Shown here: positions 8,469-27,211 of the stretch, piece after piece | Layout of the letters: each line of letters opens with the position of its first letter | Numbering within the stretch: the stretch's first letter is position 1 | IMG/VR virus record: IMGVR_UViG_3300039310_000008 | Coordinates: 1-28,308 of that record | DNA length: 28,308 nucleotides | Origin: a virus | Reading direction: 5' to 3' (one strand) | The notes under the pieces: generated by a model | Database searches by the model: none | What the model saw: only the letters and a program-made list of their open reading frames with translations | Told to the model about the DNA's origin: nothing | Program-made: the position numbers and the translations under genes

Positions 8469-8540
8469 CGCAACTCGCCGGCCCGCGCACGCGCGTGCCG
8501 CCCACCAACCCGCCCGCTCGCGGGCTCATTGGAGCCAGCC
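8469..8540 (+). promoter_or_regulatory. GC-hairpin leader upstream of decoration protein
   Basis: The gap holds a 12-nt palindrome GCACGCGCGTGC (8487-8498) and a hairpin GCCCG-CTCG-CGGGC (8512-8525) just before the TGGAG ribosome binding site. The string CCGCCCACCA followed by AACCCG is shared with the leader before the capsid gene, and a CCGC...GCGG hairpin also precedes the tail-tube gene. It lacks a T-run and is therefore not an evident terminator. mRNA stabilisation or processing is a reasonable inference. Confidence 0.5.
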
Positions 8541-9509
8541 ATGACGCTGTTCACCGAGACCAAATTCCGCCAAACGCTGCAGACGGCGTTCCTCAAGTGG
8601 TTTGCCGCCGAGGAAATCTCCTTCGAGCAGGAGACGGCGGCGCCGAACTGCGCGGCCAATCAGGGCAGCGCGTCGACCAGCTCGCCAAATCCGCAGATTG
8701 GCGGCCTACTCGATATTGGCACCGTCATGGGCCGCATTATCATCGGCGGCGGCACGCCGGCGGCTGCGGTCGCCAATGGCGGCAATACCGGCAACGGCAC
8801 CGTCGGCACGGTGACGGCGCAGACCGGCGAGCAGGTCGGCACTTACACCGTCAGCTTTACCGCCGCGACCGCGTTCAATGTCTACGATCCGAAGGGTGCG
8901 CTGGTCGGCTCCGGCGCGACCGGCACCGCCTTCGCCAATCAGCTCGGCTTCACCATCACCGCCGGTGGCACCGCCTTTGTCGCCGGCGACAGCTTCACCA
9001 TCGCGGTGCCGCCCGGCAGCTATGCCGCCAATGGCGGCAATACCGGCAACGGCACCTGCGGCGCGGTCACCGCCAAAGCCGGCTGCCAAGCCGGCACCTA
9101 TACCGGCGAGTTCTACGCGGCCACCAAGTTCAGCCTTTACAATCCTTCCGGCGGGTTTGTCGGCGAGGGCACGACTGGCACCGCCTTCTCCAACCAGATC
9201 GGCTTCACCATCACCGCCGGTGGCACCGCCTTCGTCCTCGGCGATGGCTTCTCCATCGCGGTGCAGGCCGGTTCCGGCAATGTGACGCCGCTCAATCCGT
9301 CCGCCGTCGATGGCTCCGCGGTCGCCGTCGGCATCGTCGTCAGGCCGCAGACCGTGCCGGCGGCCGCAACCGCCGCCGTGGTGCTCGCCGAGCGGCTCGT
9401 CGTCGGCCTCCTCGATTATCTGATCTGGCCCGCCGGCATTACATCGCCTCAGCAGGCCGCGGCGCTCGCGCAGCTCGCCGCCAATTACGTCATCTGCCGG
9501 CCTTCTTAA
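8541..9509 (+). CDS. Head decoration protein D with two inserted repeat domains
   Basis: Capsid-stabilising protein that binds the outside of the expanded head. The 322-residue product is far longer than lambda gpD (about 110). The gpD-type core is split: an N-terminal part (1-77) with AEEISFEQETAAPNC and GTVMGRI, and a C-terminal part (about 245-322) with NPSAVDGSAVAVGI, VVLAERLVVG and LDYLIWPAGITSP. Between them lie two tandem repeats of about 80 residues (78-156 and 163-241), each beginning ANGGNTGNGT and ending GDxFxIAV, rich in beta-strand residues and resembling Ig-like surface domains. ATG 8541 is chosen because TGGAG stands six bases upstream. The repeats would project from the capsid surface, by inference for host or surface adhesion. 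Confidence 0.82.
   Translation: MTLFTETKFRQTLQTAFLKWFAAEEISFEQETAAPNCAANQGSASTSSPNPQIGGLLDIGTVMGRIIIGGGTPAAAVANGGNTGNGTVGTVTAQTGEQVGTYTVSFTAATAFNVYDPKGALVGSGATGTAFANQLGFTITAGGTAFVAGDSFTIAVPPGSYAANGGNTGNGTCGAVTAKAGCQAGTYTGEFYAATKFSLYNPSGGFVGEGTTGTAFSNQIGFTITAGGTAFVLGDGFSIAVQAGSGNVTPLNPSAVDGSAVAVGIVVRPQTVPAAATAAVVLAERLVVGLLDYLIWPAGITSPQQAAALAQLAANYVICRPS
8772..9263 (+). repeat. Tandem 255-bp repeat in decoration gene
   Basis: Two copies (8772-9026 and 9027-9263, the second counted to the end of its matching part) encode the inserted beta-rich domains with an 85-residue period. Stretches are identical at DNA level: the copy starts share GCCAATGGCGGCAATACC, and a run of more than 30 bases around 8945 recurs around 9200. 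The mix of identical and diverged stretches suggests recent exchange between copies on top of an older duplication. Confidence 0.85.
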
Positions 9510-20226: not shown

Positions 20227-21024
20227 ATGACAGAGATATCGCAGATCCCGTTCACGCTGGGCGGCGATCTTTCCGGTGCCGGCGGCACACTCAGCAGCTC
20301 GTGGAGTACGGGCGACGCCAAGCTGACGTTCAAGCAAACAGCCGACCCGGGCTGGTTGCTGATGAACGACAGCACTATCGGCAGCGCCGCCTCCGGCGCG
20401 ACTTATGCCAACGCCGCCGCGCAGGCGCTGTTCACGCTGTTCTATGCGAGCCCGTTCACCGACGCGAACGTGCCACTCTTAACGAGTGCCGGCGCAGCGA
20501 CGACACGCGCGGCACAAGGCACTGCGGCAGCAGCCTGGGCGGCAAACTGCCGGATGACGTTGCCGCTGCAACTCGGCCGCTCGATCGCGATCGCCGGCTC
20601 CGGCGCCGGCTTGACGACCCGCACGCTCGGCGGCGCGGATGGAGTAGAGACACAGACCCTGACCACAAGTCAGTTGCCGGCGCATAACCACGGCGTTTCC
20701 GATCCCAGTCACACGCATGGAGTCAGCGATCCCAGCCACAGTCACGGTATTTCCGATCCTGGGCACACTCACGGTCCTCCGCTCGGTCTGGGGTTTTGGA
20801 TTTATGAAAGCAGCGGAGGAAACAACGGGCCATACTCCGGCGGTACTATGACCGGCCAAGGGCGGACGGGGTCCAGCGCCACCGGCATCGGCATCAACGG
20901 GGCCTATACCGGGATCAGCATCAACGGGGCCGACACCGGCATCACCACGACGAACACCGGCAGCGGCAGTCCGGTCAGCACCATGGACCCACGTTCTTAT
21001 TGGAACGTGATGATCAAGCTGTAA
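20227..21024 (+). CDS. Short tail fibre with His-rich HxH repeats (tail-collar-like)
   Basis: The 265-residue product begins MTEISQIPFTLGGDL and has a collar-like domain, DPGWLLMNDSTIGSAASGATYANAAAQALFTLFY (about 40-73) and CRMTLPLQLGRSIAIAGSG. Residues 153-182 hold repeated HNHG, HTHG, HSHG and HTHG units spaced by VSDPS-type links. Metal-binding HxH repeats of this sort are known in trimeric receptor-binding tips such as phage T4 gp12. The last part has TGIxING-type repeats and a conserved end SYWNVMIKL. It shares its plan with the longer fibre at 23818. Its location between gp45 and gp46 is not the Mu order. ATG follows a GAGAGG site. Confidence 0.78.
   Translation: MTEISQIPFTLGGDLSGAGGTLSSSWSTGDAKLTFKQTADPGWLLMNDSTIGSAASGATYANAAAQALFTLFYASPFTDANVPLLTSAGAATTRAAQGTAAAAWAANCRMTLPLQLGRSIAIAGSGAGLTTRTLGGADGVETQTLTTSQLPAHNHGVSDPSHTHGVSDPSHSHGISDPGHTHGPPLGLGFWIYESSGGNNGPYSGGTMTGQGRTGSSATGIGINGAYTGISINGADTGITTTNTGSGSPVSTMDPRSYWNVMIKL
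20683..20772 (+). repeat. HxH-encoding repeat of the short fibre
   Basis: Four HxH motifs, about nine codons apart, alternate with SDPS/SDPG linkers (residues 153-182 of the product). At DNA level the 27-base units are diverged but recognisable. This suggests metal coordination along a trimer axis, by comparison with known His-tipped fibres. Confidence 0.7.
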
Positions 21025-21606: not shown

Positions 21607-22974
21607 ATGTTTCCAATCCCGTCGCTCTATCAACTGGTGACGCGGGCGCGCAACGCGATCCGCGCCAATCTCCCGGGCACCGACGCCTGGCTGTGGCCGA
21701 ATAACGTCAACCCGACCGCCAAGGTGATCGGCGGCATGACGTCGGAGCTGTTCGGCTTCGCCGACGACATCCAGCGGCAAAAATTCGCGCTCACCGCCAA
21801 CGGTCCGGATCTCGACCTGCACGGCGCCGAGATCAATCTCTCGCGCTTTCAGCCGACGCGGTCGACCGGCAATATCTCGATCGTCGTCGCCGATTCCTAC
21901 GACGTCGCCTACGGCGCCATCTTCCAGCGCAGCGACGGCGTGCAGTTCGTCGCCTTGGCCGCCTTGTCGATCACCGGCTCGGGCACAATTACCGTGCCGG
22001 CGCAATCGGTCGGCACCGGATCAAACACGGTCACTCAGGCGGGCACGTCGCTTTCGATCTCATCGGGCACCACCGACGTAAACGGCGATGCCGCCGCGGT
22101 GGCGATGGTCGCGACCGGCGGCATGACCGGGGGCACCGACGTCGAACAGGACGGTGCCACTTTCAATCCGCCGCCGGGGACGTTCCGCTACCGCATCCTT
22201 TTCAAGAAACGAAATCCGCCGCAGGGAGGCGCGGCATCCGACTATGTGATCTGGACGCAGCAGGCCAACGGCAACGTCACCCGCGTGTTCGTCGAGCCGC
22301 TGTGGGCCGGCATCGGCACCGTGCGCGTGCTGCCGATGATGGACAACCTCTATGCGAACGGCATCCCGCAATCCGGCGATATCGCCGGGATCACCGCCTT
22401 CATACAAACCGTCCAGCCGTCCGCGGCCACCGTCACCGTCGTGGCGCCGACGCCGGTCGCCGTCAATGCCATCATCACCGGACTGACGCCGTCCAATCCG
22501 ACGACGCAGGCCGCCGTGATCGCCGAGCTGCAGGCGGCGTTCCTTCGGCTGTCGCAGGTCGCCGGCATCGCCACGCCGAACGCGTCGATGCCCTATCTCG
22601 CGATCCCGTTCACCTTCCTGCAGCAATGGCTCCAGCAGGCCGTCGACAACGCGCCGGGCGTCACCAGCGGCACCGTGAGCGTGGTGGCTGGCCTGATTAC
22701 GGCGGCCGGCGCGATCTCGACCTCGAGCGCCACCGTCACGATGCCGAACGTCTCGGGCTATCCCTGGGTTGTGCCCGGCATGAACGTCTACGACATTACT
22801 GCGGGAAAACAGATCGGCACGGTGCTGACCTATACCGGCACCACGTTGACGCTAACGGCCAATGCGGCCAACGCCGGCGCCGGCTCGACCGACTCCTTGG
22901 CGTTCTCGGCTTCCCCCGGCAACACCTCTTTGACCGCCGGACAGATCGCCGTGCTCGGGACCGTGACGTTCTGA
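21607..22974 (+). CDS. Baseplate J-like protein (Mu gp47) with inserted module
   Basis: Wedge protein of the baseplate. The 455-residue product shows the J family plan: N-terminal MFPIPSLYQLVTRARNAIRA, then PTAKVIGGMTSELFGFADDIQRQ, DLDLHGAEINLSRFQPT, a middle core with DYVIWTQQANGNVTRVFVEPLW and a conserved MPYLAIPFTFLQQWLQQAV...APGVTSG. The C-terminus of the family normally runs straight from the VTSG region to the strand ITAGQIAVLGTV. Here a 72-residue module (364-435) is inserted before SLTAGQIAVLGTVTF. The same module, 68 of 72 residues identical, occurs in the tail protein at 26099. ATG 21607; spacing to the previous gene is 21 bases. Confidence 0.9.
   Translation: MFPIPSLYQLVTRARNAIRANLPGTDAWLWPNNVNPTAKVIGGMTSELFGFADDIQRQKFALTANGPDLDLHGAEINLSRFQPTRSTGNISIVVADSYDVAYGAIFQRSDGVQFVALAALSITGSGTITVPAQSVGTGSNTVTQAGTSLSISSGTTDVNGDAAAVAMVATGGMTGGTDVEQDGATFNPPPGTFRYRILFKKRNPPQGGAASDYVIWTQQANGNVTRVFVEPLWAGIGTVRVLPMMDNLYANGIPQSGDIAGITAFIQTVQPSAATVTVVAPTPVAVNAIITGLTPSNPTTQAAVIAELQAAFLRLSQVAGIATPNASMPYLAIPFTFLQQWLQQAVDNAPGVTSGTVSVVAGLITAAGAISTSSATVTMPNVSGYPWVVPGMNVYDITAGKQIGTVLTYTGTTLTLTANAANAGAGSTDSLAFSASPGNTSLTAGQIAVLGTVTF
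22696..22911 (+). repeat. 72-residue shared module, copy in baseplate J gene
   Basis: Aligned without gaps to 26282-26497: my hand count gives 37 differing bases of 216, but only 4 of 72 residues change (V/I, P/A, A/G, A/S). Most changes are synonymous, which suggests selection on the protein. The encoded chain is rich in Thr, Ser, Gly and Val with a central YPWVV(P/A)GMNVYDITAGKQIGT segment and looks like a small beta domain. It sits at a loop of the J core. Confidence 0.88.
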
Positions 22975-22995
22975 GTTAGTGCCGGAGCGGAGCAG

Positions 22996-23781
22996 ATGAC
23001 CTCTTGCCCGTCCTCGGCGCGGCCGCCGTTCACCTGCCCCACGCTCGAGCAGAGCATTCAGGCGACCGCGGCGTTGCTGCCGCGCGGCAAAGCGTGGCCG
23101 GCGAACGATGGCGGCGGCACGATCGCCAATTTCCTGGCGTGGCTCGCGTCGCTCGGCAATCGCATTCCGGCGCCGGGCGATTGGCCAGCGGGCTACGTGC
23201 AGGCCGGCTTCGTCGCCGCGCTGGGCACCGTGCGCAACTGGATCGAGGGCCAGTTCTGCGCGCTCAAGGATGAATTTTTCTGCGCCTCCGCGACCACGAC
23301 TCTCGATCTCTGGAACGCGGAATACGGATTGCCCGATAACTGCGATCCGTATCCGAACCTCTGCGCCAAGGTCGGCTATTTCGGCTCGCCGCATTGTCCA
23401 TCGTGGGTCGCCTTGGCCGCGTCGCTCGGCTGGTCGATCGCTTGTTCGGATTTTGGCGGCGGCACTCAGGCCGGTTGCTGCCATGCCGGCAATGCTCTCG
23501 CCAATCCGGGCGCGCAGGCGACCATCGTCACCATCACGGTGTTTCTCGGTTCCAGCGGCGCCTATGGGATACCCATGTCGACGCCCTCGCGCGCCGGCAT
23601 CTTTCTTGCGGGGCAACAGCAACAATGCCAGCCCAATATCACGTCGCTTGAGTGCGCCTTCCAGCGCATTCTGCCGGCGCATCTGACGGTTAATTACGTC
23701 ACCGACAACTCTTCCGCCTTTGTCGCCCTGGTCGCCCGCGGCACGGCCGCAGCATCCGGCCGGGCGCGCATCAGCATCTAG
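22996..23781 (+). CDS. Mu gp48-like tail protein (DUF2313), Cys-rich variant
   Basis: The 261-residue chain has the DUF2313 pattern: an N-terminal ALLPRGKAWPAN (the LLPxGxAW motif), a helix GTVRNWIEGQFCALKDEFF, LDLWNAEYGLPDNCDPYPN, and a C-terminal end with LECAFQRILPAHLTVNYV. In Mu-like phages this is the protein that follows gp47 and links baseplate to fibres. Twelve Cys are present, mostly paired in pattern (FC, FFC, NC, LC, HC, AC, CCH, QC, EC), which is many for a virion protein. GGAGCGGAG lies shortly upstream of ATG 22996. Confidence 0.85.
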   Translation: MTSCPSSARPPFTCPTLEQSIQATAALLPRGKAWPANDGGGTIANFLAWLASLGNRIPAPGDWPAGYVQAGFVAALGTVRNWIEGQFCALKDEFFCASATTTLDLWNAEYGLPDNCDPYPNLCAKVGYFGSPHCPSWVALAASLGWSIACSDFGGGTQAGCCHAGNALANPGAQATIVTITVFLGSSGAYGIPMSTPSRAGIFLAGQQQQCQPNITSLECAFQRILPAHLTVNYVTDNSSAFVALVARGTAAASGRARISI

Positions 23782-23817
23782 CTGACTTTTTCCTTTTCCA
23801 CATCGCGGTAGCACTCC

Positions 23818-25137
23818 ATGACCGATCTCTTCGGCCCGGCCAATGCTGCAAACTCGGTCACCGCCATGCCCGCGGACTCGCGGGTGTTCGGGTCGAACAA
23901 CACCTTTTTCAAGGACTGCTCCTCGCCGACCGCGAATGATGGGACCGCCTACGGCGCTTCTTTTTTCAATTTTCTGCTGCAGATGCTCCGCGCCGCCGTC
24001 ACCGGCCAGAACATCCCGCAGGACAATACCAATGCGAACATGCTGCTGCAGGCCATCCAGGCCGCAGCGCCGCCCTATGCCGCCGATATCGGCGCGCAGA
24101 ATGCGCTGATCGTCAACGTCAATCAGCCGGGCTTCGCGCTCGGCGCCGGCTCCATCATCCGCACCAAGGTCGCCTATACCATCACCGGGGCGGCGACCAT
24201 CCAGGTCTATAACGGCACCAGCAATCTCGGCACTTTCAACCTCACGCGTTCCGACTTGAGCGCGCTCAATCCTTATGACCTGGTCGCGGGTCAGATGGCG
24301 GCGCTGACCTACGACGGCACCGAATTCCAGATCCCGCGCGGCGACGCCGGCGGCACCGGCGACCTGAAATGGAAACTCGCCGGCACGACGCTCACCGGTT
24401 GGGTGCCGCTCAACGGCCTGACCATCGGCAGCGCCTCCTCGGCGGCGACCGCCCGCGCCAACGCCGATTGCCAGCAGCTCTACTATCTGCTCTGGAACAA
24501 TTTCTCCAACACGCTCTGCCCGGTCACCGGCGGCCGCGGCGGCTCGGCCTCAGCGGACTGGACGGCGAATAAGCCGATCCAGCTGCCCGACTCGCAGTGC
24601 AAGTCGCTGATCGGCGTCGACGGCATGGGCGGCGCCGCGACGACGGGTCGCTTGAGCGGCGTGCCGATCACCGCCGGCGCCTCCAATATGTTCGGCTCGA
24701 CGCTCGGCGAGTCGCTGCACGCGCTGGCGACCGGCGAGCTCGCTTCGCACAATCACGGCGTCAACGACCCTGGTCATAGCCACGGCGTCAATGATCCGGG
24801 CCACGACCACTCGGTCAACGATCCGGGCCACGACCACTCGCATACCGATCCGGGGCACTCTCACACGGTCCCTGGTTATGCTTCCAATGCTGGGGTTTTT
24901 GGGACCAACATCGAGGCCAGCAACCAGAGCACTCCCTGGGTCAACGAACCCACAAGCAGCGCCACGACCGGCATCAACAACAACTCATCCGGCACCGGCG
25001 TGAGCAACAATTCATCGGGCACCGGCGTCGGCGTCGATACCGCCGACACCGGCATTTCGACCCAAGCCGCCGGCTCCGGCACCGCGCACAACAACACCCA
25101 GCTTTCGCTCACCGCGGTCCTGTTCGCGCGGCTCTGA
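23818..25137 (+). CDS. Long tail fibre with His-rich HxH repeats
   Basis: Likely receptor-binding fibre (439 residues). The N-terminus MTDLFGPANAANSVTAMPADS is a likely attachment domain. The middle (about 100-180) is a strand-rich domain with LIVNVNQPGFALGAGS and GTFNLTRSDL. A collar-like domain follows (GWVPLNGLTIGSASSAATARAN, with CPVTGGRGGSASADW). Residues 311-349 contain HNHG, HSHG, HDHS, HDHSH and HSH units, linked by VNDPG repeats, as in metal-binding tips. TGI/TGV-rich repeats (382-422) precede the end LTAVLFARL. The ribosome binding site is weak. The gene is followed tail-to-tail by the methyltransferase. Its relative is the short fibre at 20227. Confidence 0.82.
   Translation: MTDLFGPANAANSVTAMPADSRVFGSNNTFFKDCSSPTANDGTAYGASFFNFLLQMLRAAVTGQNIPQDNTNANMLLQAIQAAAPPYAADIGAQNALIVNVNQPGFALGAGSIIRTKVAYTITGAATIQVYNGTSNLGTFNLTRSDLSALNPYDLVAGQMAALTYDGTEFQIPRGDAGGTGDLKWKLAGTTLTGWVPLNGLTIGSASSAATARANADCQQLYYLLWNNFSNTLCPVTGGRGGSASADWTANKPIQLPDSQCKSLIGVDGMGGAATTGRLSGVPITAGASNMFGSTLGESLHALATGELASHNHGVNDPGHSHGVNDPGHDHSVNDPGHDHSHTDPGHSHTVPGYASNAGVFGTNIEASNQSTPWVNEPTSSATTGINNNSSGTGVSNNSSGTGVGVDTADTGISTQAAGSGTAHNNTQLSLTAVLFARL
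24748..24864 (+). repeat. His-rich tandem repeat of the long fibre
   Basis: Repeats of about nine codons (27 bases) encode HxH with NDPG linkers. Two successive units share an identical run of 21 bases, starting at 24793 and again at 24820. Shared links (NDPG here, SDPS in the short fibre) suggest both arose from one ancestor. Copy number may vary by slippage. Confidence 0.78.
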
Positions 25138-25171
25138 TCTTATCGACGCTGATCGACGAAACGACCGAGTT

Positions 25172-25999
25172 TTAGTTCGATGTGCGATGATGAACCATTT
25201 GCTCTAATGGAGGGATCGGAGCTCTTGGTCGCAGCAAAAGATCACTTACGCATTCGTGCCGCATCAAATTGACGTGCAGAAAAGTTTGCGGGTCATGCGG
25301 CAAGGGTTGCGCTCGCTCGCGATGAAAGACCTGCAGCACGTCGAAATTCGACCAGATCGACGTGGCGAAGGTCAGCGGATCGTAATGGTGCAGAAGCAAT
25401 GTCCAAGGGCAGAACTCCATAAAGACTAGGGGTTGCGCCTCTGCGATCAGTCGGCGCGCTCCGGCCAAAACATTTGGTTCAAAGCCCTCTACATCTATCT
25501 TGATGAAATTTGGCGCGCCGAGACCGAGATCGTCTAATCGGACAGCCTTGCAGGCTACGGTGCCGCGGTTGGCGACCGACCACGGCCCATTATCGCTGAA
25601 TGAGAGCGGGCCGGAGAAATCTGCTACCGCCGCGTCGATCACCTCAACATTGGTAATCGCATTCGCTGCGAGGTTTTGCCGGAGACACTCTTGCGCCATG
25701 GGCTGCGGCTCGAACGCCACGACGCGGCAATCAGGGCGCAGGACCGCAACTGTAATGGCGGTCAAACCGATATGGGCGCCAACGTCGAGGCATAACGATC
25801 CGCGAGAAAGCGTCATAGCCGCCGCTGCGATCGCGGTTTTATCTGCTCGCCAGGTCCGCAAACCGCGCCAGCGTCGCAGTCCGCGCATGTAGTTCGAATG
25901 AGTGCCGACGAGCCTTAGCCTTCGCGAGCCGACATAAATCGAGGCCTCGTTTTCGGCGGATCTCAAGAGCGTCGTCGACATTTGGCTGATCGCATCCAC
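25172..25999 (-). CDS. FkbM-family methyltransferase on the opposite strand
   Basis: SAM-dependent methyltransferase of the FkbM type. The 275-residue product has SAM motif I LDVGAHIGLTAITVA (71-85), motif II VVAFEPQPMAQECLRQNL (93-110), a segment NVEVIDAAVADFSGPLSF (117-134) and FIKIDVEGFEPNVLAGA (165-181), the family's diagnostic IDVEG. The start is GTG 25999 with GGAAGGA ten bases upstream; an internal ATG at codon 7 is possible. It is the only minus-strand gene here and has visibly lower G+C. It lies tail-to-tail with the fibre gene. Related enzymes O-methylate sugars, so it may alter host surface glycans as a lysogenic-conversion gene, or the fibre's target. The substrate cannot be read from sequence. 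Confidence 0.88.
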   Translation of the reverse strand: MDAISQMSTTLLRSAENEASIYVGSRRLRLVGTHSNYMRGLRRWRGLRTWRADKTAIAAAAMTLSRGSLCLDVGAHIGLTAITVAVLRPDCRVVAFEPQPMAQECLRQNLAANAITNVEVIDAAVADFSGPLSFSDNGPWSVANRGTVACKAVRLDDLGLGAPNFIKIDVEGFEPNVLAGARRLIAEAQPLVFMEFCPWTLLLHHYDPLTFATSIWSNFDVLQVFHRERAQPLPHDPQTFLHVNLMRHECVSDLLLRPRAPIPPLEQMVHHRTSN

Positions 26000-26098
26000 G
26001 CGGGCGGTTTCCTTCCGTAGCCAAGCTTAACAGCCGCAGGTTGTCGCTGGCAACCCGGCAAATTCCACCTACGCATCCCTATCAAGGAGAACGAGATC
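26000..26098. promoter_or_regulatory. Divergent region between methyltransferase and tail gene
   Basis: This 99-base gap separates divergent genes, so it must hold the methyltransferase's promoter if the gene has its own. On the minus strand TTGCCA, 17 bases, then TTAAGC gives a weak -35/-10-like pair. A short hairpin GGTTG/CAACC is at 26039-26055. The rightward gene has a strong AAGGAGA (26084-26090). No certain promoter is seen. Confidence 0.35.
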
Positions 26099-27211
26099 AT
26101 GAGCGGTCTATCCGACTATTCGGCCGAGAACGTGCTGAATTGGGAAACCGGCAACGCGCCGATGCCGGCGATGGCGTCGCGCTTCCTTACGCTGTTCGTC
26201 GCTCCACCGACGGCGGATGCCGTCACCGGCGGAGTCGAGATGGCCGGCGGAAATTATGCCCGCGTGCAGGTCGCGGGCGAGATCACGGCGGCTGGCGCGA
26301 TCTCGACCTCGAGCGCGACCATCACGATGCCGAATGTCAGCGGCTATCCCTGGGTGGTTGCAGGGATGAACGTCTACGACATCACCGCGGGCAAGCAGAT
26401 CGGCACGGTGCTGACCTACACCGGCACCACGCTGACGCTGACCGGCAACGCCGCGAATGCTGGTTCTGGATCCACGGACTCGCTGGCCTTCTCCGCTTGG
26501 CCGGCGGCATCGGCGTCTTCGGGGAATGAGCCGGCGACGGCTCCCGCCAACGTCACCAATTCCGGCGCAGTCGTTACCTTTCCGCAAGCCGCCGGGACCG
26601 AGCCATGGGGCGGCGCTCTTGCGGCTGGCGCCTCGTTCACGACCGCTTCGACCACGATCACGATGGGAGCCGCGGTCCCGAGCTGGGTCGTGGCTGGGGC
26701 TAACGTCTATGATGTGACGGCTTCGGCGCAGATCGGTACGGTGGCGAGCGTCGCCGGTTCGACCGTTACCCTCTCGGCTGCGGCGGCCCATGCATCGTCC
26801 GGTTCGACTGATTCGCTTTTGTTCAGCGCGCCCGCAGTGGCTTGGGGCCTGTTCGACGCTTTATCTGGCGGCAACCCGATCACCTGGGACTATCTCGGCA
26901 ACAACAAGTGGATTCCGTTCTCTTGCAGCTCGGCGTCGCCTGGCGTGCTGACCTGCGACAGCACGTCTGACGCACCGGCCAACGGCTCCTCGATCGTGGT
27001 GACGCAGAAGTACGGCGGCACGCTGCCGACAACCGGCGGCTCCTGGTCTGGTCTGTTGACCACGGCGAACCTGTCGGGCGCGACGTTCACCGCCGGCGTC
27101 AACACTACCGGGATCGGCGGCGGCCAGTTCCGCCAGCTCACCCAGCAGCCGATCTCGATCAACGTGACGGCGAGCTTCGCCACGTCGACCTTCACGCTGA
27201 TGCTGGCGTAA
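26099..27211 (+). CDS. Phage gp80-type tail fibre protein split by two modules
   Basis: The core resembles gp80-like tail proteins: MSGLSDYSAENVLNWETG, FLTLFVAPPTADAVTGGVEMAGGNYARVQV (29-58), then ATAPANVTNSGAVVTFPQA (146-164), AWGLFDALSGGNPITWDYL (248-266). The core is interrupted twice: a module at residues 62-133, 68/72 identical to that in the J protein, and a diverged second copy at about 173-244 (ALAAGASFTTASTTITM...SWVVAGANVYDVT). Both lie where loops of the core would be. A C-terminal strand-rich region with QFRQLTQQPISINV follows; it is not typical of the family. AAGGAGA lies eight bases before ATG 26099. It may decorate the fibre or baseplate surface. Confidence 0.78.
   Translation: MSGLSDYSAENVLNWETGNAPMPAMASRFLTLFVAPPTADAVTGGVEMAGGNYARVQVAGEITAAGAISTSSATITMPNVSGYPWVVAGMNVYDITAGKQIGTVLTYTGTTLTLTGNAANAGSGSTDSLAFSAWPAASASSGNEPATAPANVTNSGAVVTFPQAAGTEPWGGALAAGASFTTASTTITMGAAVPSWVVAGANVYDVTASAQIGTVASVAGSTVTLSAAAAHASSGSTDSLLFSAPAVAWGLFDALSGGNPITWDYLGNNKWIPFSCSSASPGVLTCDSTSDAPANGSSIVVTQKYGGTLPTTGGSWSGLLTTANLSGATFTAGVNTTGIGGGQFRQLTQQPISINVTASFATSTFTLMLA
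26282..26497 (+). repeat. 72-residue shared module, copy A in gp80-type gene
   Basis: Near-identical partner of the copy in the baseplate J gene (see 22696-22911). Most base differences are synonymous, so the protein sequence has been kept. The two flanks in the host proteins differ completely, which indicates precise insertion or exchange of this segment rather than duplication of a whole gene. Confidence 0.88.
26615..26830 (+). repeat. Diverged copy B of the 72-residue module
   Basis: Residues about 173-244 align to copy A over its length: ASFTTASTTITM to AISTSSATITM, SWVVAGANVYDVTASAQIGTV to PWVVAGMNVYDITAGKQIGTV, and SSGSTDSLLFSA to GSGSTDSLAFSA. Much less similar than copy A and the J copy are to each other, so this copy is older or came from another source. 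Confidence 0.78.

Follow-up and report, generated by a model that had tools for sequence, protein, structure and literature searches.

Small barrels inserted into a larger virion fold have been described in tailspike depolymerases. Residues 284-370 of LKA1gp49 form a six-stranded barrel insertion domain (PMC5701251), KP34gp57 carries the same kind of insertion domain (residues 103-203; PMC10653864), and the 'rider' of the K1 lyase, which appears to correspond to segment 137-230, resembles the I-domain of the P22 coat protein and contributes both to the binding of polysaccharide and to the stability of the trimer (PMC8822698). Promiscuous domains that occur across unrelated phage proteins are also known already: Smug et al. 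2023 (PMC10684548) describe fragments common to otherwise unrelated proteins, often tail or receptor-binding proteins, immunoglobulin-like (Ig-like) domains occur among the structural proteins of phages (Fraser et al. 2006, as cited in PMC10684548), and lactococcal siphophages have carbohydrate-binding modules in evolved Dit and in further virion proteins (PMC6669499). Here we describe a protein module of about 75 residues, predicted to fold by itself into a small beta-barrel, in the virus record IMGVR_UViG_3300039310_000008 (positions 1 to 28,308, called the window below). The module is inserted in a loop of the baseplate J protein and in two loops of a gp80-like tail protein of this virus.

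The J protein (21607-22974, + strand, 455 residues) is a wedge protein of the Mu gp47 / BW2 type; the PF04865 profile matches its core (residues 66-315, E 1.5e-41), and its structure match in the PDB is gp47 of phage Mu (9ki1). It contains one copy of the module, at residues 360-437 (22684-22917, + strand) in a loop of the C-terminal domain, where a profile match, homologs with an empty site and a predicted barrel coincide. The gp80-like protein (26099-27211, + strand, 370 residues) matches PF23140 (E 2e-7; 31.8 bits, above the curated cut-off of 27), the Gp80 family, which is the 'fiber I' protein of podophage GP4. It contains two copies: copy 2 in loop A (26270-26503, + strand), recognised by alignment, by profile and by the empty loop A of relatives, and copy 3 in loop B (26609-26836, + strand), recognised by tblastn and by a loop B that is empty in the other relatives. 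Both host proteins are found with 100% identity in a 53-kb contig (L042/L094).

The segments 22696-22911 of the J gene and 26282-26497 of the tail protein gene align without gaps, with 68 of 72 residues identical (94%) and 37 of 216 bases different. A codon alignment returns exactly the counts that had been given in a preliminary description of this DNA. The similarity sets in at about 22684 and 26270 and stops sharply past 22911 and 26497, and the DNA identity between 22683-22912 and 26269-26498 is 82%. The two hosts had been called otherwise unrelated, which agrees with their assignment to Baseplate_J (PF04865) and Gp80 (PF23140). In a six-frame search of the whole 28.3-kb record the module is found three times, each time in frame (22684-22920, 26270-26503 and 26612-26830), and neither the opposite strand nor sequence beyond the open frames contains one. 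The tblastn E-value of 6e-42 for the second copy excludes chance similarity. The third (53% identity to copy 1, E 2e-17), within the same tail protein as the second, had been overlooked in an inventory of two copies that are both real.

Nearly all base changes between the J and the loop-A copies had been judged silent, and the Nei-Gojobori count bears this out: the 37 changes divide into about 30.5 synonymous and 6.5 non-synonymous ones. The corresponding non-synonymous divergence (dN) is 0.043, and the synonymous divergence (dS) is 0.87, a rough value that is drawn from just 59 synonymous sites in a GC-rich gene; the ratio dN/dS is 0.05. About half of the synonymous sites differ (proportion pS 0.515). 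The copies are under strong purifying selection, and this ratio together with the conserved core residues points to selection at least for folding.

Is the module part of the core fold of either family? At the J site, the module is missing from 35 of 39 distinct homologs, which continue without a break (e.g. ...VVSP|ADVxLxAGQIxVLG), so it is not a standard part of the PF04865 family. The site is filled, by about 76 extra residues, in the other four, which all belong to one lineage that includes L010. The relatives of the gp80-like protein were gathered with its C-terminal part only (collection A5), which avoids ascertainment by the module. Among these, 30 of 41 distinct proteins carry the module, 29 of them in loop A, while one fragment (L125) displays a loop-B copy only; in the remaining 11, loop A is short and empty (e.g. 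YARVATSG|ATWNA). The PF23140 match forms one stretch in an empty relative (L149, 88.3 bits) and two stretches split by the module in occupied relatives, and both the solved GP4 gp80 (8jou_a) and a bacterial gp80 (L118) align across loop A without it. Loop B (...WG|TVxAWGLYDA) is occupied solely in the lineage of this phage and empty in the other relatives. The module is a genuine loop insert in both proteins. The preliminary description had proposed a portable beta-type domain in loops of two unrelated virion proteins, and the empty sites, the split PF23140 matches and the compact barrels predicted below bear this out. It had also allowed that the segment might turn out to be a general part of the family core; for gp80 this holds by half, since most members of the subfamily (30 of 41) do carry the module, but as an insert and not as core.

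Structure prediction with AlphaFold2 (mean predicted local distance difference test score, pLDDT, of 82 for J and 77 for the gp80-like protein) gives a compact barrel at the place of the insert in both models. The block pLDDT is mostly 82-93 for the loop-A copy and 70-91 for the J copy, and short strands follow in the same order across the module copies. In VIA-align 2, the loop-A copy (model residues 60-135) superimposes on residues 105-179 of the tail tube of the Acinetobacter phage Mystique (9n71_A) with Z 9.5 and a root-mean-square deviation (rmsd) of 1.8 over 70 residues, and the J copy (361-437) on residues ~105-180 of the same chain with Z 9.0 and rmsd 2.3 over 73 residues. This is the best fold match from the gp80-like model and the best module-only match from the J model; the Mystique segment differs in its host protein and is just 11-14% identical to the module. 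The J copy also matches the LKA1 tailspike (284-372, 4ru4_B, Z 8.5) and the Klebsiella K1 lyase (137-230, 7w1c_B, Z 8.2). As far as prediction goes, the strands, the empty sites and the Z values agree in placing a small barrel between two parts of a host domain. No Ig fold is among the fold matches listed and there is no Pfam Ig match, although such a listing does not exclude one. With the whole gp80-like model, Foldseek finds no match in the PDB at E<=0.001; in the viral library it returns mostly uncharacterised proteins in long, poor alignments.

The module is portable well beyond these two proteins. A profile search with the module alone, as the preliminary description had proposed, finds further hosts and no Pfam or PHROG family, the single Pfam match being at chance level. 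A podophage virion protein of about 600 residues (phrog_3287) carries it at two distinct sites, after YGDGxYGxG (L016, L039, L034) or after a DPSQGxxG stretch (L015, L032). The two groups are reciprocal, each being empty at the site of the other, and L193 holds a further copy in the same protein family. Single copies are found in a 752-residue protein (L033), a 761-residue tail protein (L028) and a 626-residue protein (L195). Phages L195 and L028 each have the module in a gp80-like protein and also in another tail protein, but their copies do not resemble each other, unlike the J and loop-A pair described here, which is nearly identical.

Among bacterial contigs, a single-sequence query found nothing, whereas an alignment query found three loci. 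A protein of about 2700 residues of Bradyrhizobium manausense (L101:33-8132) has nine module copies by profile search, and a protein of about 3000 residues (L100:72-9041), 42-49% identical to it, has five, both partly in tandem runs; the two giant proteins are repetitive and of a Bradyrhizobium type. The latter contig is labelled Frankia sp. RB7 and may be mislabelled. The first copy of the B. manausense protein sits where its relative has just a few residues. The third locus is a prophage-type gp80-like protein with the module in Bradyrhizobium sp. Tv2a-2 (L099). Of 297 genomes in the family to which the B. manausense locus belongs, only 3 carry the module, so that it is rare in that family. 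Searches with tblastn found nothing in GenBank phages and PLSDB plasmids for three module queries, and nothing in GenBank phages for a whole gp80-like protein (L017). To judge from the few named relatives, the carriers are probably phages of soil bacteria with Bradyrhizobium-like hosts.

We now consider the history of the copies, using a tree of 53 copies and 76 columns that has many weak forks and no fixed root. The two J copies pair with support, and the pair sits in a supported clade (99/91) together with the loop-A copies from their own lineage and from L013; the phrog_3287 copies are interspersed among those of gp80 loop A. Copies from loop B join loop-A copies of other phages (81/89) and not the loop-A copy next to them, a placement that speaks against tandem duplication as the source of the loop-B copy. 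The simplest reading of this unrooted tree is that the J copy came from a gp80 loop A. The preliminary description had suggested that the module spread by precise exchange inside one virion. The grouping of the J copy with loop-A copies of its own lineage and of L013 fits descent from a gp80 loop-A copy, but spread within this virion stays putative, the dS of 0.87 denoting an old event and not a recent exchange, and the loop-B copy grouping with the gp80 of other phages. Between this phage and L010, the J module is more changed than the J core (28/216 vs 58/1077, Fisher p 2e-4).

The account that we prefer, with a probability of about 0.7, is that of a self-contained barrel inserted in tail proteins, carried by recombination into J and loop B, kept by purifying selection, and having an accessory role in adhesion or packing at the tail surface. 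The commonest home of the barrel is loop A of a gp80-like tail protein. Recombination would have moved a relative of the loop-A copy of its own lineage into the loop of the J C-terminal domain, and a relative of the gp80 modules of other phages would have been placed in the second loop, B, of that gp80-like protein; strong purifying selection then keeps the copies. The insertion, the portability and the purifying selection are demonstrated and the fold is predicted; the route and direction of these transfers, the surface exposure, the putative ligand and the function are parts of the account that we infer. The module would most likely serve as an accessory surface domain, for glycan contact or for support between subunits, and on the J wedge protein it may bind cell-surface polysaccharide weakly or brace neighbouring subunits. 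The wedge of phage Mu contains two J-type BW2 proteins, with a peripheral handshake to the next wedge (PMC11915804). By analogy, the J module would be present 12 times per baseplate, and the C-terminal domain with its insert would lie at the baseplate rim.

Several points weigh against this account. The tree leaves the direction from gp80 to J unrooted. Glycines and hydrophobics make up most of the invariant residues, and no conserved patch for sugar binding is obvious. Isolated module rows were used to seed the alignment behind the AlphaFold2 model of J and bias that model towards a separate domain, and the VIA-align Z of 8-9.5 may mirror a common barrel arrangement. No sequence link to known barrels was found either: in a search of PDB sequences with the module profile (A2), no such chain appears at E<=5, the matches being solely Tako8 (repeats, each stretch insignificant) and ClpP.

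Two alternatives concern how the copies arose or stay alike. The 94% protein identity inside one genome could in principle be the work of recent gene conversion, yet conversion would homogenise silent sites too, and the pS is 0.515. Moreover, the dS of 0.87 between the J and loop-A copies far exceeds the 0.15 between the J cores of this phage and L010, so that the split of the two copies predates these phages and recent conversion becomes very unlikely, the least credible of the explanations considered. Palindromic elements of Rickettsia are believed to insert in frame into genes, and a mobile element of this type, acting at the DNA level, would fit the in-frame occurrence of the module in numerous unrelated genes, with as many as nine copies in a single bacterial gene. 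We consider it highly improbable here: the conservation is at the protein and not the DNA level, no copy in the record is off-frame or on the other strand, and a DNA hairpin element was dropped as a candidate, with folding not beyond chance (z -0.17) and, in place of strong terminal inverted repeats, just short imperfect ones.

The remaining alternatives concern what the barrels do, and here an accessory surface role is favoured, with bracing as its main rival. Under bracing, the inserts would stabilise the contacts of adjacent tail subunits in the manner of the P22 coat I-domain and have no host ligand. The LKA1 insertion barrel resembles that I-domain, which is thought to steady subunit contacts (PMC5701251), mutants in the K1-lyase rider lose thermal stability (PMC8822698), and J-type subunits make handshakes between wedges at the baseplate rim (PMC11915804). 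We hold bracing to be possible but somewhat doubtful, as the module comes and goes in J and gp80, is dispensable in many relatives, and is also found in giant bacterial proteins, where virion contacts do not exist. The patchy occurrence in every host family might instead suggest near-neutral passengers, that is, small soluble barrels with adjacent ends that loops tolerate and that drift in and out by recombination; this is unlikely given the dN/dS of 0.05 between J and loop A and the core residues conserved across host proteins. A more specific idea, and a distinctly speculative one, is that the likeness of the J and gp80 copies is maintained because both must recognise one host-surface partner, with a rim of 12 identical weak sites plus the sites on the tail protein, the family being traded with the giant surface-type proteins of Bradyrhizobium. 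The ratio of replacement to silent changes is about 6.5:30.5 for J vs loop A and about 25:31 for the loop-A copies of two phages (Fisher p ~0.01), and the fewer replacements in the former, along with the occurrence of the family in the Bradyrhizobium proteins, lend this idea weak support.

Some other features of the window are described for completeness. The gp80-like protein has a third inserted domain, resembling the FCCH barrel of ubiquitin E1 (model residues 266-349; 26894-27145, + strand; VIA-align Z ~8 to the FCCH regions of UBA1 and UBA6). It is found in every gp80-like relative of collection A5, which was gathered through that part. Between the tail fibre and gp80-like genes lies a gene for an FkbM-family methyltransferase (25172-25999, - strand; TIGR01444). 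In the relatives L006 and L008 nothing matches this stretch and the interval is shorter, which makes the gene look like added cargo. Two tail-collar-type proteins (20227-21024 and 23818-25137) have runs of HxH repeats (SDPSHTHG / NDPGHSHG) that resemble metal-binding fibre tips, and a head-decoration-type protein (8529-9509, PF02924) repeats a stretch of about 85 residues in tandem (8771-9016 / 9026-9271, 77% DNA identity). The genes in the neighbourhood of the two module-bearing ones, for a sheath, GP46 and a Mu Gp44-like hub, are those of a Mu-like contractile phage.

Compared with the described systems, the module shares with the barrels of LKA1gp49, KP34gp57 and the K1-lyase rider the insertion of a small barrel, here a predicted one, in another virion fold (Z 8.2-8.5 to the K1 lyase and LKA1). 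Those barrels sit on beta-helices and shape a sugar groove, whereas the module sits in a wedge protein and a gp80-like protein, and the search of PDB sequences found no link to them. Like the Ig-like phage domains, as PMC10684548 cites them, it is accessory, sporadic and scattered over unrelated virion proteins; it differs in occupying internal loops and in having no assigned Ig fold. The lactococcal carbohydrate-binding modules are likewise accessory domains on a conserved tail component (PMC6669499), but they belong to siphophages of Gram-positive hosts, while the present module belongs to a Mu-like contractile phage and its ligand is putative. The phenomenon is the mosaicism of Smug et al. 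2023, outside the PHROGs and with no match in the GenBank phage collection, and it agrees with the known tendency of phages to fit their tails with exchangeable domains. What is new is a sequence family that neither Pfam nor PHROGs contains, the presence of an inserted copy in baseplate J, and the wide set of host proteins.

The absence of the family from Pfam and PHROGs means that annotation could be improved at once. The module is also a natural experiment in domain insertion, with one small barrel, empty and filled sites in several unrelated folds, and copies that can be traced. Its hosts include a core protein of the baseplate wedge and not merely a fibre. If it is true that the module binds host glycans, then one small insertion could make even the wedge ring of a contractile baseplate adhesive.

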